Positions 18,684-26,548 of a stretch of DNA of 64,000 bases are shown piece after piece; the stretch's first letter is position 1; every line of letters starts with the position of its first letter. A model generated the notes under the pieces. That model was not told the origin of the DNA. It searched no databases and saw only the letters and a list, made by a program, of their open reading frames with translations. A program made the position numbers and the translations under genes. Source of the stretch: Alphaproteobacteria bacterium (lineage in GTDB: Bacteria; Pseudomonadota; Alphaproteobacteria; SHVP01); the NCBI GenBank assembly GCA_016869765.1, contig VGES01000016.1, positions 1 to 64,000 on the forward strand, read 5' to 3'.

Positions 18684-19541
18684 TCACTGTCGGGTTGTCG
18701 ATCGCGCTGCGGATGTCGCCGGCCTAATTCGGTAGAGCGCGCTGGCATTGCGAAAGGCGATCGCTTCCGCGTGGTCGCGCGGGAGTTGCTCGAGCCAGCG
18801 ACGATGCTCATCGATGAGGCGCGCGTAACTCTCCCACCGCGGCGTGATGTAGGTGTCGCTGCCGATCATGATCCGTTTCGAGTACTTGATTAGGACCTCG
18901 CGCCACTCGGCGGACAACGTGCCTCCTGGAGCGATGTCGCCGGAGCGAAACGACACTTCGGTCCAAAGTGTTGGGAAACGCTCGAGCATAGCGGCGACGA
19001 CGCTCGCTGGTTCGCTCATGCCGGCGTGGGCCCACAGAATCTTGACGCCGGGGTCGACGCGAAAAAGCGCCTCGATTGGTGCGGCGCCAGAATGGACGTG
19101 GATCATCACGTCGTACCGCCGCGCGAGCGCCACCGTTCCCCGCACGGTCGGCCCGTCGACCTCGGATGAGTCGAACAAATGGAACTCGCCAATGCCCGCG
19201 TAGCGGGTCTTCTTCAGGCGTTCGGCGAGGTACTCGACGACGCCCGGATCGCGGGTCCAATTGCCCGAGCCGATGGTCCCGCGATAGGGCCGGAGAACCG
19301 GAGTCACAATGCTCGGCGCATGACGTTGCAGCGTCAGCGACCCATCATCGGGTGTGCTCGAAACCAACGCCTTGGTAACCCCGGCCTCGCGCAGCACGGC
19401 GATCGCCTTCTTGGGCGGAAACGGCTTCCAGGCGGGGTTCGAATAGTGCACGTGGGTGTCGAAGATCGGCAGCCGTTCCGCCGCCTGTGCCGACCCCATG
19501 AGGGCCAGGGCAGACACGATCACGAGCCACAGCCGATGCAC
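18684..19541 (-). CDS. Exported amidohydrolase-2 family metal-dependent hydrolase
   Basis: A TIM-barrel amidohydrolase of 285 aa. The mature part starts with the metal motif FDTHVHYSNPAW, followed by GIGEFHLFD, MIHVHSG (metal His), ILWAHAGMSEP and MIGSDTY with the catalytic Asp. GTG 19541 is chosen because GGGGAGG lies 5 nt upstream. It yields a clean signal peptide (MHRLWLVIVSALALMGSAQA|A), so the product is periplasmic. Upstream in-frame ATGs would bury the signal. The substrate is unknown; relatives include lactonases and decarboxylases. Confidence 0.88.
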   Translation of the reverse strand: MHRLWLVIVSALALMGSAQAAERLPIFDTHVHYSNPAWKPFPPKKAIAVLREAGVTKALVSSTPDDGSLTLQRHAPSIVTPVLRPYRGTIGSGNWTRDPGVVEYLAERLKKTRYAGIGEFHLFDSSEVDGPTVRGTVALARRYDVMIHVHSGAAPIEALFRVDPGVKILWAHAGMSEPASVVAAMLERFPTLWTEVSFRSGDIAPGGTLSAEWREVLIKYSKRIMIGSDTYITPRWESYARLIDEHRRWLEQLPRDHAEAIAFRNASALYRIRPATSAARSTTRQ

Positions 19542-19596
19542 GGCGACCTCCCCTGAGGTCATTGTAGCGAATTTTCGCGATGGTTCTGTAGCGACG

Positions 19597-19612
19597 CCAC
19601 TTGGCAAAGTGG
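19597..19612. promoter_or_regulatory. Palindrome in a divergent intergenic region, possible operator
   Basis: CCACTT-GGCA-AAGTGG is a perfect 6-bp inverted repeat, with further imperfect pairing outside. It lies midway between the divergent amidohydrolase (start 19541) and HtrA-like (start 19655) genes. The size and position suit a dimeric regulator. No regulator gene lies next to it. Confidence 0.35.
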
Positions 19613-19654
19613 TGCGAAGTCCCCTAATCAGACACGGAGAGAAGTCCGATCACC

Positions 19655-20629
19655 ATGTCCGAACAGCAGGATTGGGAAATCCCAGACGACGCAAGGCCAC
19701 AGGTCGAAGACGTGGCCTTTGACCTCGACCGGACGTTGTCGTCCGTCGTCAACGTGCGTGCCTTGGTGCCGGAGGACGTGTTCACCGCCCCGATTCTCGG
19801 CACCGATCGTTATGGCAACGGCGTGGTCATCCGCGAGAACGGCATCGTCCTGACCGTCGGGTATCTCGTCACCGAAGCGGAACAGATCTGGATGACGACG
19901 ACCGAAGGACGGGTCGTGCCCGGCTCGGTGCTCGCCTACGATCACGAGACGGGGTTCGGACTGATCATGGCGCACGCCCCGCTCCGGACTCCCGTGATGC
20001 CTATGGGTAGCGTCCGTGATGTCAGGATCAACGATCCGATGATCGTCGGGGCTGGCGGTGGGCGTCGTCATGCGCTCAACGTTCGCGTTGTCTCGAAGCG
20101 GGAGTTCGCGGGCTCGTGGGAGTACCTGCTCGACGAGGCGTTGTTCACCGCCCCGGCCCACCCGTCGTGGGGCGGCGCCGGCTTGATCGATCGTCAGGGC
20201 CGGCTGGCGGCGATCGGCTCGCTGTTCGTCCAACAGGCGCGCGAACAGACCGAGCTCGCCGGGAACATGTTCGTGCCGATCGACCTGCTGTCCCCGATCT
20301 ACGACAACCTGGTGGGTGGGGGACACACAAGGGTCGCGGCCCGGCCGTGGCTCGGCGTCTATCTCGCGCAGTCGGAACGGTCGGTCGTAGTCGTCGGGCT
20401 CGCCAACGGCGGCCCGGCGCAGCGTGCCGACGTACGACCCGGCGACCAGATCATCGAGGTGGCCGGGCAGCCGGTCGATGATCTCGCCCGGGCCTTTCGC
20501 CTGATCTGGGCTCAGGGCAAGGCTGGAGCCGAGATTCCGTTGACCCTGCGGCGCAACGGCCGCATGCTTCAACTATTCGTTCGCTCCGCCGAGCGCAACA
20601 GCATCCTGCGTCGTCCGCGCCGTCACTAG
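19655..20629 (+). CDS. HtrA/Deg-like protein with PDZ domain, catalytic triad absent, cytoplasmic
   Basis: A 324-aa protein with the trypsin-like Deg fold (about 25-215) followed by one PDZ domain (about 230-312, with WLGVYLAQ..GGPAQRADVRPGDQIIEVAGQPV). Alignment by eye to Deg proteases puts Tyr70 at the catalytic His (VLTVGYLV against ILTNxHVV), Gly100 at Asp (ETGFGL against xTDLAL) and Trp172 at Ser (SWGGAG against NSGGPL). All three catalytic residues are therefore lost. There is no signal peptide, unlike periplasmic Deg proteins. A binding or scaffold role is inferred. GGAGAGAAG supports ATG 19655. An MFS gene follows. Confidence 0.88.
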   Translation: MSEQQDWEIPDDARPQVEDVAFDLDRTLSSVVNVRALVPEDVFTAPILGTDRYGNGVVIRENGIVLTVGYLVTEAEQIWMTTTEGRVVPGSVLAYDHETGFGLIMAHAPLRTPVMPMGSVRDVRINDPMIVGAGGGRRHALNVRVVSKREFAGSWEYLLDEALFTAPAHPSWGGAGLIDRQGRLAAIGSLFVQQAREQTELAGNMFVPIDLLSPIYDNLVGGGHTRVAARPWLGVYLAQSERSVVVVGLANGGPAQRADVRPGDQIIEVAGQPVDDLARAFRLIWAQGKAGAEIPLTLRRNGRMLQLFVRSAERNSILRRPRRH

Positions 20630-20683
20630 GGCCCTGCCCGCGTCAGGCGGGAGGTGTCGTCCGAGGATTGCGGAAAGGCCTGC

Positions 20684-21916
20684 TTGGACCAAACGGCTGC
20701 TCTTTCGACCAACCGACGTGACGTCAAGGTGATCGGGCTGATCAGTACCGCTCACATGTTCAGTCACGCCTACACCATCGTCCTCCCGCCACTCTACCCT
20801 CTGCTCAAGGAGGAGTTCGGCGTTTCCTACGCCGCCCTCGGGTTCGTCATGACGGCGTTCAGTATTGCGAGCGGCATCGGTCAGACTCCAGTGGGCTTTC
20901 TCGTCGATCGCATCGGCGGTCGCGGCCTCCTGATCGGCGGGCTCATTCTCATGGCCGCCTCGATTGGTGCGGTCGGTCTGGTCCATTCCTATTGGGCGTT
21001 GTTGGCGTTGTTCATGGTGGCAGGGATCGCCAACACCGTTTTTCATCCGGCCGACTACGCGATCCTTTCGGCCTCGGTCGATCGCAGCCGCCTCGGGCGA
21101 GCCTTCAGCGTTCACACGTTCTCCGGCAATGTCGGCTGGGCGATCACGCCGACCGTGATTATCGTGCTGACCGCCTGGATGGATTGGCGGACGGCGGTGA
21201 TCCTGATCGGCGTCGCCGGCATCGTCTGTGCGCTGCTGTTGTGGTCGCAGAGTTCCGTTCTCAGCGACGAAAAGGCGCCCGAGCCCGACGCCAAGCCAAA
21301 GTCGCAGGCCGTGGATTCGGGCGGGAGAACCGAGAAGCTCGGGATGGCGCTCCTGCTCTCGCCGCCGATCCTGATGGCGTTCCTGTTCTTTCTCTTGGTT
21401 TCTGCCGGTACGGGCGGCCTTCGGGCCTTCCTCGTGTCGGCCTTGGTCGCGGCCGAGCAGACGCCCCTCTCGGTTGCCAACGGGGCCTTGACCGGGTTTC
21501 TCGTCGGCGGCGCCGCCGGGATTCTCGCCGGCGGCGTCGTCGTCGATCGGCTGGGCAAGCCCGAACGCACGGCGGTGTTCGGCTTCCTGTTGACGGCCGC
21601 CTTCATCGTCCTTGCGGGACTACCCTCGATGCCGTTCGTGATCATGCTTGGGGCCTTGAGCGCCGCCGGCTTCTTCAGCGGCATTGTTCAGCCCAGCCGC
21701 GATATCCTGGTGCGCAACGTCACGCCGGAGGGTCAAGCGGGCAAGGTGTTCGGCTTCGTCTCGACCGGCCTATCGATCGGCGGCGCCGTGATTCCTCCGG
21801 TGTTCGGCTGGATCATGGACAACTCCGACCCGCGATGGGTTTTCTGGCTCGCCGCCGCGATGGTCCTCGCGAACGTGCTGACGGTGGGCGGCCTCGCCCG
21901 CGCGGCGCGCCGCTAG
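20684..21916 (+). CDS. Major facilitator superfamily transporter
   Basis: About 410 aa with 12 predicted helices in two halves. Helix 1 is VIGLISTAHMFSHAYTIVLPPLYPLL. The MFS loop 2-3 motif appears as GFLVDRIGGRGLLIGG, and the half-repeat as GGVVVDRLGKPERTAVFG. The HMFSH start recalls fosmidomycin-resistance-like and other 'HxxSH' MFS proteins. A charged cytoplasmic loop (SDEKAPEPDAKPKS) lies between the halves. TTG 20684 is chosen for GGAAAGG 5 nt upstream; GTG 20654 is the longer alternative. The substrate is unknown. It probably shares transcription with the HtrA-like gene 54 nt upstream. Confidence 0.85.
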   Translation: MDQTAALSTNRRDVKVIGLISTAHMFSHAYTIVLPPLYPLLKEEFGVSYAALGFVMTAFSIASGIGQTPVGFLVDRIGGRGLLIGGLILMAASIGAVGLVHSYWALLALFMVAGIANTVFHPADYAILSASVDRSRLGRAFSVHTFSGNVGWAITPTVIIVLTAWMDWRTAVILIGVAGIVCALLLWSQSSVLSDEKAPEPDAKPKSQAVDSGGRTEKLGMALLLSPPILMAFLFFLLVSAGTGGLRAFLVSALVAAEQTPLSVANGALTGFLVGGAAGILAGGVVVDRLGKPERTAVFGFLLTAAFIVLAGLPSMPFVIMLGALSAAGFFSGIVQPSRDILVRNVTPEGQAGKVFGFVSTGLSIGGAVIPPVFGWIMDNSDPRWVFWLAAAMVLANVLTVGGLARAARR

Positions 21917-21920
21917 CCGC

Positions 21921-22580
21921 TCAGAACTCGTATTTGTCGATGCGCGGTTCCTGTTCGGCGTCGCGCCGCCACGTCTGCATGGCGGGCAATTGCTGGATGC
22001 TTTGCATGTATTCCTCGCCCACCGGATCAAGGCGGACGCCATAGGTGGCAAAACGCGTCACCACTGGCGCGTAGAAGGCGTCAGCAGCCCCGAATCGGCC
22101 GAACAGGAAGTCGCCACCGCTCGGTCGACCATAGCGATTGCGGCATTCTCGCCAGATCGCCGCGATCCGTTCGATGCTCGGTTGGACGTCATTCCCAATG
22201 ACAAAGTTGGTGTAACGCCGCCGGATGTTCATCGGTAGACGCTCGCGTAGCGGCATGAATCCGGAATGCATCTCGGCGCAAATGCTGCGGGCCAGAGCGC
22301 GTTGCTTGGTGTCCTGCGGCCAGATCTGTTTCTCCGGGAAGCGTTCGGCCAGGAACTCGGCGATGGCGAGCGAATCCCAGATCACCTGATCGCCCACCTT
22401 GAGGACGGGAACGCGACCGGTCGGTGAATGCTGCTGGATTCGGCTCGTCGTTTCCTCGGTTCCGAGGGGGACCATCACCTCGGTAAAGGGCAGGGCGTTG
22501 GCAGCCAGGATCAACCATGGTCGCAACGACCACGACGAATAGTTCTTGCTGCCAATAACGAGTGTCATCGGATCGGCCAC
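21921..22580 (-). CDS. Glutathione S-transferase family protein
   Basis: A 219-aa GST. The thioredoxin-like N-terminal domain starts VIGSKNYSSWSLRPWLIL, with Ser in the glutathione-activating region as in Zeta/Beta-like GSTs. The glutathione-binding TGRVPVLKVGDQVIWDSLAIAEFLAERFP has the cis-Pro and Asp-Ser pair. The all-helical C-terminal domain includes FGAADAFYAPVVTRF, the N-capping box motif. GAGGAG 6 nt before GTG 22580 fixes the start. It conjugates or reduces electrophiles in the cytosol; the substrate is unknown. It is divergent from the M17 aminopeptidase. Confidence 0.92.
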   Translation of the reverse strand: MADPMTLVIGSKNYSSWSLRPWLILAANALPFTEVMVPLGTEETTSRIQQHSPTGRVPVLKVGDQVIWDSLAIAEFLAERFPEKQIWPQDTKQRALARSICAEMHSGFMPLRERLPMNIRRRYTNFVIGNDVQPSIERIAAIWRECRNRYGRPSGGDFLFGRFGAADAFYAPVVTRFATYGVRLDPVGEEYMQSIQQLPAMQTWRRDAEQEPRIDKYEF

Positions 22581-22698
22581 GGCTATCTCCTCAATGTCGC
22601 TGCCGATGGCGTAGCCAAAGCCGCCGGCCGGGTCAACGTGCCCCCTGTCCGTTTCGCGAAATCGCGCTACTCTCGGCCGCCGTTTCAACGAGGAACCC

Positions 22699-24069
22699 GT
22701 GCCAACCTTCGTGACTCGATCGCGTCAGGCTCAGCCAATCTGGTCGATTGCCGCCGCAGACTATGGATCCTGGCTGAAGACCCAGGCCGTGGACATCCGA
22801 CAGTGGCTGACCCATACCGGCTTTCGCGCAACTGCCGGCAAGTTCGCCCGCATCCCGGGGGCCGGGCGTCGCCAGCCGGGGGTCCTGCTGATCCTCCCCG
22901 ACCGCGTCGGCACCTTCGCCTTTGCCGAGCTGCCGCGGGCGCTCGGGGCCGGCGTTTTTCGTCTCGCAACGGCGATGAGCGCCCGCGATGCCACGATGGC
23001 CGCCGTCGGTTGGGGTCTCGGCACGTATCGCTACCAGCGCTACAAGCGCAACGGGAACGGCCATGCCTCCCTGGTGTGGCCGGCGAACGCAGACCGCACT
23101 CGCGCCGAACACCTGATCGAGGCCCACACGCTCGTCCGCGACCTGATCAACACACCGACCGAGGACATGGGACCAGACGCGCTGGCCGCGAACGTGAAAC
23201 AGGTGGCCCGGGCCTTCGGTGCCAAGGTCCAGGTCATCGTCGGGGCCGATCTATTGCGGCGCAATTTTCCCGCCATCCATGCCGTCGGACGCGCCGCGGC
23301 GCGTGAACCTCGCCTGATCGATCTGCGCTGGGGCCCGGCCGATGCTCCCAAGTTGACCTTGGTCGGCAAGGGCGTGTGTTTCGATTCCGGGGGGCTCGAC
23401 ATCAAACCAGCCTCGGGCATGCGCTGGATGAAGAAGGATATGGGCGGGGCTGCGACGGCGCTCGGCCTCGCACAACTCATCATGGCCTCGCAATTGCGGG
23501 TTCGCCTGCGCGTTCTCATCCCGGCCGTCGAAAACGCGATCGCCGGAAACGCCTATCGGCCGGGGGATGTGATCCGCACGCGCAAGGGCCTGTCGGTCGA
23601 AATCGGGAACACCGATGCCGAGGGGCGGGTGATCCTGTGCGATGCGCTCGCCCTCGCCGATGAGGAGGCACCGGAGCTGCTGCTCGATTTTGCGACCCTT
23701 ACCGGCGCTGCCCGCGTGGCGCTCGGGCCAGAATTGGCGGCGCTCTTCACCGATGACGACCAATTGGCCGAGGATGTGACCAGATTCGGATCGAGCCACG
23801 ACGATCCCGTTTGGCGTCTGCCGCTGTGGGCGCCCTACCGTCGCATGATCGACAGCAAGTTTGCCGACATCACCAACTCCTCCGACAGCGGATTTGGCGG
23901 AGCGATCACGGCCGCGTTGTTCCTGAAGGAGTTCGTCACCCGGTCCCAGGCGTGGGCGCACTTCGACCTGTTCGCCTGGAACGACTCCGACAAGCCCGGT
24001 CGGCCCTACGGCGGTGAGGCGATGACCATGCGGGCTCTGTTTGGGCTGCTCGAAGATCGCTACGGCTGA
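22699..24069 (+). CDS. Leucyl aminopeptidase family protein (M17)
   Basis: A 456-aa M17 metallopeptidase. The C-terminal catalytic domain has all expected two-zinc and catalytic residues: VGKGVCFDSGGLDIKP (Lys, Asp, Lys), MKKDMGGAA (Asp), NTDAEGR (Asp, Glu, Arg) and LLDFATLTGAARVALG. The N-terminal domain is divergent, as in PepA-like paralogues of alphaproteobacteria. It removes N-terminal residues from peptides in the cytosol, and the neighbouring GGCT-like and downstream peptide-importer genes fit a peptide-salvage setting. The start is a GTG at 22699. A GGCT-like gene follows within 30 nt. Confidence 0.93.
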   Translation: MPTFVTRSRQAQPIWSIAAADYGSWLKTQAVDIRQWLTHTGFRATAGKFARIPGAGRRQPGVLLILPDRVGTFAFAELPRALGAGVFRLATAMSARDATMAAVGWGLGTYRYQRYKRNGNGHASLVWPANADRTRAEHLIEAHTLVRDLINTPTEDMGPDALAANVKQVARAFGAKVQVIVGADLLRRNFPAIHAVGRAAAREPRLIDLRWGPADAPKLTLVGKGVCFDSGGLDIKPASGMRWMKKDMGGAATALGLAQLIMASQLRVRLRVLIPAVENAIAGNAYRPGDVIRTRKGLSVEIGNTDAEGRVILCDALALADEEAPELLLDFATLTGAARVALGPELAALFTDDDQLAEDVTRFGSSHDDPVWRLPLWAPYRRMIDSKFADITNSSDSGFGGAITAALFLKEFVTRSQAWAHFDLFAWNDSDKPGRPYGGEAMTMRALFGLLEDRYG

Positions 24070-24097
24070 TGACGAACAACGACCGAGGCCTTCGATC

Positions 24098-24544
24098 GTG
24101 AACGATCTGTTGTTCGTCTATGGCACGCTGCGCCGGGCTGTCGGGGCGCCCGCCCACGAATTGTTCCGCGAACATGCATCGTTCGTGGACGAGGCCATCA
24201 TTCAGGGCTGTCTCTACGACCTCGGGAATTTTCCCGGGCTCGTGCTGTCCGATCGGTTGACCGACAAGGTGCAGGGCGAGGTCTACCGCCTGTTCACCCC
24301 AAAGCCAACGCTCGACCTCCTGGATCAGTACGAGGGGGCCCACGGCGGCACCAAGCCCTGGCCGGCCCAGTACCAGCGGCTGCAGCACACCGTCGCCGGT
24401 CGGCAACACGGGCGCCTCGTCGCTTGGGTCTACACCTACGCCCTGGCCGTCAAAGAAGAGCAACGCGTTGTTGGTGGCGACTATGCCGTCCACCTCCGCG
24501 GCAAGCCGAATTACCGCCCACCGTCGATCGATCGTCGATCGTAA
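24098..24544 (+). CDS. Gamma-glutamylcyclotransferase-like (AIG2/YtfP) protein
   Basis: A 148-aa GGCT-fold protein. It starts NDLLFVYGTLRR, the invariant YGTL substrate loop, continues GCLYDLGNFPGLVLS, and has the acidic segment LLDQYEGAHGG..YQR, where the conserved Glu acts as catalytic base. Family members cleave gamma-glutamyl bonds to 5-oxoproline, or act on gamma-glutamylamines. GTG 24098 is chosen because it places FVYGTL near the N-terminus as in homologues. It lies 28 nt after the M17 aminopeptidase, so the two are probably cotranscribed for peptide/glutathione turnover. Confidence 0.88.
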   Translation: MNDLLFVYGTLRRAVGAPAHELFREHASFVDEAIIQGCLYDLGNFPGLVLSDRLTDKVQGEVYRLFTPKPTLDLLDQYEGAHGGTKPWPAQYQRLQHTVAGRQHGRLVAWVYTYALAVKEEQRVVGGDYAVHLRGKPNYRPPSIDRRS

Positions 24545-24598
24545 GCCCGATGCGTCGGGCGCCAGCGTTTTCCCGCCGGTGCTGCTAGATTCCGCCCT

Positions 24599-24925
24599 AT
24601 GGACGCTGCCGATCATCAGGCGCTCGAGCGCTGGCTCCACGTGCTCAGCGCTGGTTTGCGGGACAAAGGCCCCGACCTGACCGCACGCCAGACGGCGGTC
24701 CTGCTTTCGATCTACCTCACGCCGCCGCCGCACACCGCAGGTCGCCTGGGTCGGGAGCTGGGACTGGCCAAGCCCGCGGTAACGCGTGCCCTCGATGTTC
24801 TGGAACAGCTCGAGTTCGTCCGTCGCCTGCCCAACGCCGAGGACGGTCGCAGCCGGTTGCTGCAACGCACGGTGAAGGGCAGCGTCTACCTCGACTCCTT
24901 CGCCGCGCGGGTGCGTGCGACTTAG
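24599..24925 (+). CDS. MarR family winged-helix regulator (short)
   Basis: A 108-aa winged-helix protein, shorter than typical MarR (about 140). It has LTARQTAVLLSIYL, the recognition region TAGRLGRELGLAKPAVTRALDVLEQLEFVRR and the wing NAEDGRSRLLQRTVKG. The DGRSR wing is diagnostic for MarR. The N-terminal dimerisation helix is reduced. Its stop (24925) directly abuts the stop of the convergent ABC ATPase gene. Targets and ligand are unknown; the neighbouring M17/GGCT or yej genes are candidates. Confidence 0.87.
   Translation: MDAADHQALERWLHVLSAGLRDKGPDLTARQTAVLLSIYLTPPPHTAGRLGRELGLAKPAVTRALDVLEQLEFVRRLPNAEDGRSRLLQRTVKGSVYLDSFAARVRAT

Positions 24926-26548
<1,623 letters not shown>

Follow-up and report, generated by a model that had tools for sequence, protein, structure and literature searches.

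One gene in the window, by which we mean the whole stretch of 64,000 nucleotides that was analysed, encodes an HtrA-like protein of 324 amino acid residues in which the catalytic His-Asp-Ser triad is absent, and the His and Asp are likewise gone from all 151 distinct family members compared. By descent and fold the protein is an HtrA, but by the features tested it is not an HtrA protease. The reading that we favour, with a probability of about 0.58, is that this dead HtrA scaffold works as a binding protein through its PDZ groove and a remodelled cleft, most likely in the cytoplasm. In this view, the PDZ domain would grip a partner in its groove by peptide ends that are C-terminal or hydrophobic and exposed, while the former substrate cleft, which has been remodelled yet is strictly conserved, would hold a peptide segment or a small ligand without cutting it. 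A binding role had been suggested in a preliminary description of this DNA; the family-wide triad loss, the R-P-W-L-G motif kept in the PDZ domain, and purifying selection support it, and we infer that binding is the function of both the window protein and its family.

Overall architecture of the window protein

The frame is intact over all 324 codons (window 19655-20629, plus strand), as the preliminary description had it, and its Trypsin_2 and PDZ_2 matches both exceed the curated Pfam cut-offs (Table 1). Besides the Trypsin_2 and PDZ families, the Pfam scan of the 324-residue protein gave nothing above these cut-offs, and the NCBIfam HtrA models all matched far under theirs, the Do family with 62.3 bits against a cut-off of 416.2. 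The AlphaFold2 model, built with 102 aligned homologues, has a mean pLDDT of 94.2 and a pTM of 0.91. The top solved matches of this model in Foldseek were all HtrA/Deg proteases; structural re-alignment to them gave Z values of approximately 22-25 among the alignments listed, most of which run from residues 16-18 to residues 312-324. The window protein thus shows the HtrA/Deg architecture of a chymotrypsin-like protease domain and a PDZ domain, and the latter retains its carboxylate-loop motif (R-P-W-L-G), of which the Trp-Leu-Gly is found in the canonical HtrAs of the window's genome as well. Canonical HtrAs are trimers. A 314-residue antisense open frame (window 19628-20572, minus strand) lies opposite the gene and appears to be a mirror frame in GC-rich coding sequence.

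Table 1. Coordinates in the window of the pseudoprotease gene, its features, and the adjoining genes.
Feature	Position	Strand	Evidence
Amidohydrolase-family gene, divergent upstream neighbour	18684..19607	-	PF04909, E 7e-14
HtrA-like pseudoprotease CDS, 324 aa	19655..20629	+	Intact frame; Trypsin_2 and PDZ_2; confident HtrA fold
Protease-like Trypsin_2 domain, residues 54-187	19814..20215	+	PF13365, E 1.1e-11
Tyr70 codon, catalytic His position	19862..19864	+	Aligned with the catalytic His in HhoA and in three HtrAs of the same genome
Gly100 codon, catalytic Asp position	19952..19954	+	Alignment to HhoA and three HtrAs of the same genome
Trp155-Glu156-Tyr157 loop, preceding the strand into the old S1 pocket	20117..20125	+	Invariant in 104/104 and 53/53
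Ser171-Trp172-Gly173, oxyanion-hole/nucleophile loop (chymotrypsin 193-194-195)	20165..20173	+	Alignments; Gly173 is the Ser position
PDZ domain, residues 232-307, W-L-G-V carboxylate-loop motif at its start	20348..20575	+	PF13180 (PDZ_2), E 1.9e-12; motif common to three canonical HtrAs of the same genome
C-terminal tail, residues 311-324, in the form characteristic of signal-less members	20585..20626	+	Family C-termini
MFS transporter gene, 24-54 nt downstream	20654..21916	+	PF07690, E 7.4e-55

Loss of the catalytic triad

The triad was read against the solved HhoA and three canonical HtrAs encoded in the window's own genome (L003, L004, and L006). Since the latter three read H, D, and S in the triad columns, the alignment is able to reveal a triad where one is present. 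In the window protein, these columns hold Tyr70, Gly100, and Gly173. The preliminary description had placed Tyr, Gly, and Trp there by eye; the alignments to HhoA and the three HtrAs bear out the Tyr and the Gly, but the Trp was misplaced. Trp172 was rejected as the Ser position because it stands one residue ahead of that column, at chymotrypsin position 194 (chymotrypsin numbers were transferred by counting from the Ser column). Position 193, a glycine in active enzymes, is Ser171; the accessible text of the MamO study argues that a non-glycine residue at 193 blocks the oxyanion hole (PMC4794232).

Two samples of homologues were compared. The first comprised 104 loci that align across nearly the full length of the window protein (24 plus the best 80 of 496 matches; 102 distinct proteins); His and Asp are gone in 104/104, a universality that is partly by construction given the choice of best matches, and Ser173 is present in 33/104. 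The second comprised 53 loci, mostly genome matches to the family profile plus four plasmid records, with His and Asp gone in 53/53 and Ser at 173 in 6/53. Once the repeats were set aside (L149, L155, L166, and L157, the last judged to be the same place as L106), the joint set held 151 distinct members. The His column is Tyr in 148 of these and Phe in 3, the Asp column is Gly in 151/151, Trp occupies 172 in 142/151, and position 193 is other than Gly in 150/151. Because the pattern recurs in 151/151 distinct homologues, chance is not an issue. Shared loss of the triad, a point raised in the preliminary description, thus holds throughout for His and Asp, but a lone Ser is kept at column 173 in 38/151.

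The second sample serves as a counter-check on selection bias, as does the family-profile search of 21 genomes, in which members scored at least 390 bits and all other matches at most 99.7 bits (the triad of the low-scoring proteins was read for three, all in the window's own genome). A preserved triad at shifted positions, which by the preliminary description would have refuted its assignment, was not found: the polar residues that are nearly invariant across the protease domain contain a single His, His169, and no two of them are arranged in the manner of His57/Asp102. The window protein is probably without proteolytic activity.

Extent of the family

In the tree, a long, fully supported branch parts the pseudoprotease family from the three canonical HtrAs; the tree was made by a quick method with three outgroup rows, and its long branches were flagged by the program. 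The family is present in 65/289 sampled genomes of the window's class and 35/398 of its phylum. Named carriers include plasmids of Azospirillum, Rhizobium, Neorhizobium, and Phyllobacterium, and the record titles of the matches represent alpha, beta, and gamma groups, with many Burkholderiales and Betaproteobacteria. The contig that carries the nearest relative (L029:5001-5972, 79% identical) bears the title 'Planctomycetia', probably that of a mislabelled metagenome bin; this locus has the same MFS gene downstream and apparently the same amidohydrolase gene upstream.

Conservation of the remodelled cleft

The remodelled cleft is almost invariant, namely Tyr70, Gly100, His169, Trp172, Ser189, Asn204, and the Trp-Glu-Tyr loop. 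Asn204 is invariant in both samples, and His169, which like Ser189 is nearly invariant, is kept in 139/151 distinct members. Mean identity is 84% over twelve columns that line the former active site (70, 100, 167-173, 189, 190, and 204) and 65% over the protease domain; of 20,000 random column sets, 63 reached as high a value. The chosen column set follows known active-site positions but was fixed after several had been seen to be conserved, so the comparison is supportive only. Strong conservation of the cleft could be due in part to fold stability. Pairwise dN/dS was 0.036-0.118 in seven of eight family pairs, dS being saturated in the eighth (L007-L008). The family-wide loss, the near-invariant new cleft, and the dN/dS of about 0.04-0.12 together show that the triad loss is not local decay; the conserved residues of the cleft are not those of a decaying site.

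Cellular location and C-terminal tails

No signal-like hydrophobic stretch was found in the first 50 residues of the window protein, where the best 12-mer has a mean hydropathy of 1.32, and there is room for only nine further codons upstream of its start. This agrees with the preliminary description, which had seen no export signal; judged by hydropathy and not by SignalP, the protein has neither the export signal nor the membrane anchor of the HtrAs. The 102 distinct proteins of the first sample were sorted into two signal-less types of 71 and 19 and a secreted-looking branch of 12. A 12-mer hydropathy of at least 2.0 was reached by 1/71 and 0/19 of the signal-less types and by 8/12 of the secreted-looking branch, in which L025 is either truncated at a contig end or short and L028 shows no clear signal. 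A cytoplasmic location, also proposed in the preliminary description, is presumed from the missing signal peptide for the window protein and most homologues, but does not extend to the secreted-looking branch.

The window's own genome holds members of both kinds, in addition to the three canonical triad-bearing HtrAs. Its second copy (L002; G000:C27:42940-43833, which is L002:1483-2475 on the minus strand) is 41% identical to the window protein, has a signal-like start, and likewise lacks the His and the Asp. The two kinds differ in their tails. The form S-x-D-R-x-x-F-L-K-K-P-x-L-H closes many signal-less members, which end mostly in His, Gln, or Asn, whereas secreted-looking members end mostly in a hydrophobic residue. 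The last residue is hydrophobic in 10/12 of the secreted branch against 4/90 of the others in the first sample and, in the second, in 8/10 signal-like members against 3/39 others, all counts of related proteins and hence not independent. The tail of the secreted form may be a PDZ-ligand-like end, or that of the signal-less form a partner site.

A more elaborate reading is possible, if doubtful: the family, undescribed and Proteobacterial, would be an HtrA scaffold moved to the cytoplasm as an allosteric switch that binds peptides, with the cleft turned into an invariant ligand pocket that controls the PDZ groove according to whether it is occupied, and with compartment-specific tails. The cytoplasmic and secreted versions within one cell would then carry different C-terminal tails.

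A possible metal or ligand site in the cleft

We consider it unlikely that the cleft has been remodelled into a specific site for a small molecule or a metal, like that of MamO, with the PDZ domain used for assembly only and the protein acting as a cytoplasmic ligand or metal sensor or chaperone. The most conserved cleft residues do include ligand-capable sidechains (Tyr70, His169, Ser189, Asn204, and Glu156), and MamO, a pseudoprotease of the trypsin fold, binds transition metals via surface histidines according to the accessible description (PMC4794232). According to that same text, however, the metal residues of MamO sit in other loops (PMC4794232). Moreover, the polar-residue scan of the present family gave a single well-conserved His, His169, and no conserved Cys, and no metal-related neighbours recur among the neighbouring gene families listed.

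Genomic neighbourhood

The MFS gene downstream follows after 24 nt if it starts at GTG 20654 and after 54 nt if it starts at the in-frame TTG 20684; the 54 nt of the preliminary description hold for the latter start, which was presumably the one used. That the pseudoprotease is a scaffold dedicated to this transporter is, in our view, quite improbable. The two genes share a strand with this short gap, no terminator-like site was found between them, and among the 10 genomes of the window's bacterial family they are adjacent in 5 of the 6 that have a close MFS homologue (in one of the 10, the pseudoprotease and the MFS homologue lie on different contigs). However, no close MFS homologue was found in the other 4 of these 10 pseudoprotease-bearing genomes, and tblastn at an E-value of 1e-8 or better placed an MFS homologue at 7/104 family loci, although many of the 104 have short flanks, those from the genome search only ~1.5 kb. 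All seven MFS-bearing loci belong to the window's bacterial family or are a near-copy. The transporter-associated scaffold put forward in the preliminary description is therefore not supported as the role of the family, for which an MFS-tied function is unlikely, although the two genes may be linked locally.

Pfam scans of 52 downstream and 52 upstream co-directional neighbours found no conserved operon partner. Downstream, MFS occurs in 7 and every other Pfam family in at most 4/52; upstream, no family exceeds 5/52. The scans covered 52 of 54 downstream neighbours (without L077 and L081) and 52 of 53 upstream neighbours (without L066); neighbours were picked by a GC3 heuristic at 96/104 loci downstream and 94/104 upstream, so that AT-rich loci are under-represented. 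At other loci, unrelated genes lie downstream, among them those for MlaC, methionine synthase domains, GGDEF-EAL, and NUDIX. Since no operon partner is widely conserved, a stand-alone adaptor fits better than a subunit of one pathway. PADLOC gave no match that would link the gene to anti-phage defence.

At five loci of one subgroup (L089, L096, L098, L099, and L105), a CHASE2-cyclase of the same cluster was picked upstream, and a MlaC-like protein was picked downstream in four of them, these picks likewise being heuristic. Beyond the MFS gene, window 21921-26548 holds a peptide- or glutathione-type run of a glutathione S-transferase, an M17 leucyl aminopeptidase and a gamma-glutamyl cyclotransferase-like protein, whose frames overlap, and a MarR regulator; the ATPase that follows the regulator presumably belongs to a dipeptide ABC transporter.

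Residual hydrolase activity or decay as improbable alternatives

It is very improbable that the protein is a hydrolase using unusual residues, such as Ser173 where present or Ser189 with His169. The lone Ser in a quarter of the members and the near-invariance of Ser189 and His169 would suit such an enzyme, but none of the 151 has a His at the general-base position, the glycine of 193 is replaced in all but one, and the window protein itself has Gly in the Ser column. We take His169 and Ser189 to be chymotrypsin positions 191 and 214, which are not known to act as a catalytic pair. Decay of a gene copy without function, which the loss of catalytic residues taken alone would fit, is refuted by the conservation data, namely the intact frames, the low dN/dS of 0.04-0.12, and the new residues invariant across the alpha, beta, and gamma groups.

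Comparison with known HtrA-like proteins

The window protein shares with HtrA, DegP, DegS, and HhoA (MEROPS S1C) the chymotrypsin-like domain followed by a PDZ domain, the fold, and the PDZ carboxylate loop, but it has no His, Asp, or Ser at the triad columns, no signal-like segment, and a Do-family score far under the cut-off (62.3 against 416.2 bits). The plasmid search also gave annotated direct homologues from Phyllobacterium and Neorhizobium (47-51% identical). Of the annotations read, two are 'S1C family serine protease' and the third is 'signal protein PDZ'; the sequences read (L118-L120) have the same Tyr and Gly as the window protein and lack the triad despite the two protease labels, and 'serine protease' is probably a wrong label for members of this family.

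Inactive relatives of proteases are known: a 2008 survey, as far as its accessible text goes, classed 42 of 966 prokaryotic serine proteases as inactive homologues (PMC2605481). MamO of magnetotactic bacteria, judged here by the accessible description, is an HtrA-derived metal-binding pseudoprotease with a degenerate triad, a residue other than Gly at 193, and a Trp in loop L1 (PMC4794232), and all three of these active-site features recur in the window family. However, the L1 Trp is at 194 in the window family and at 192 in MamO, and the window family replaces the His and the Asp themselves, whereas MamO as described has a threonine substitution with the catalytic residues otherwise properly placed. 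MamO also carries a C-terminal transporter (TauE) domain, which the Pfam scan did not find in the window protein; the latter instead has a PDZ domain and no signal-like segment.

PflC, from the flagellar motor of Campylobacter jejuni, is, in the accessible part of its description, an HtrA-derived scaffold without a triad (PMC12222027), and it resembles the window family in that a triad-less HtrA is re-used for binding or scaffolding, as we propose here. As described there, PflC is periplasmic, its active-site region is atrophied, and it carries two PDZ-like domains, the C-terminal PDZ being without the binding loop. The window protein does not show these features: its single PDZ domain retains the loop, its cleft is conserved, and it lacks a signal-like segment.

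Pseudoprotease HtrAs as such are thus already known from MamO and PflC, but the present family is apparently undescribed: no published description was found in a search made largely without subscription papers and preprints, and the HtrA reviews that it returned (PMC11642142) do not describe the family in their accessible parts. The family offers an apparently undescribed and widespread example (65/289 class genomes) of an enzyme scaffold turned to a binding role. Its members are seemingly located for the most part in the cytoplasm, a place where bacterial HtrAs are not expected. The relatives in Azospirillum, Rhizobium, and Neorhizobium make genetic and interaction studies directly feasible.
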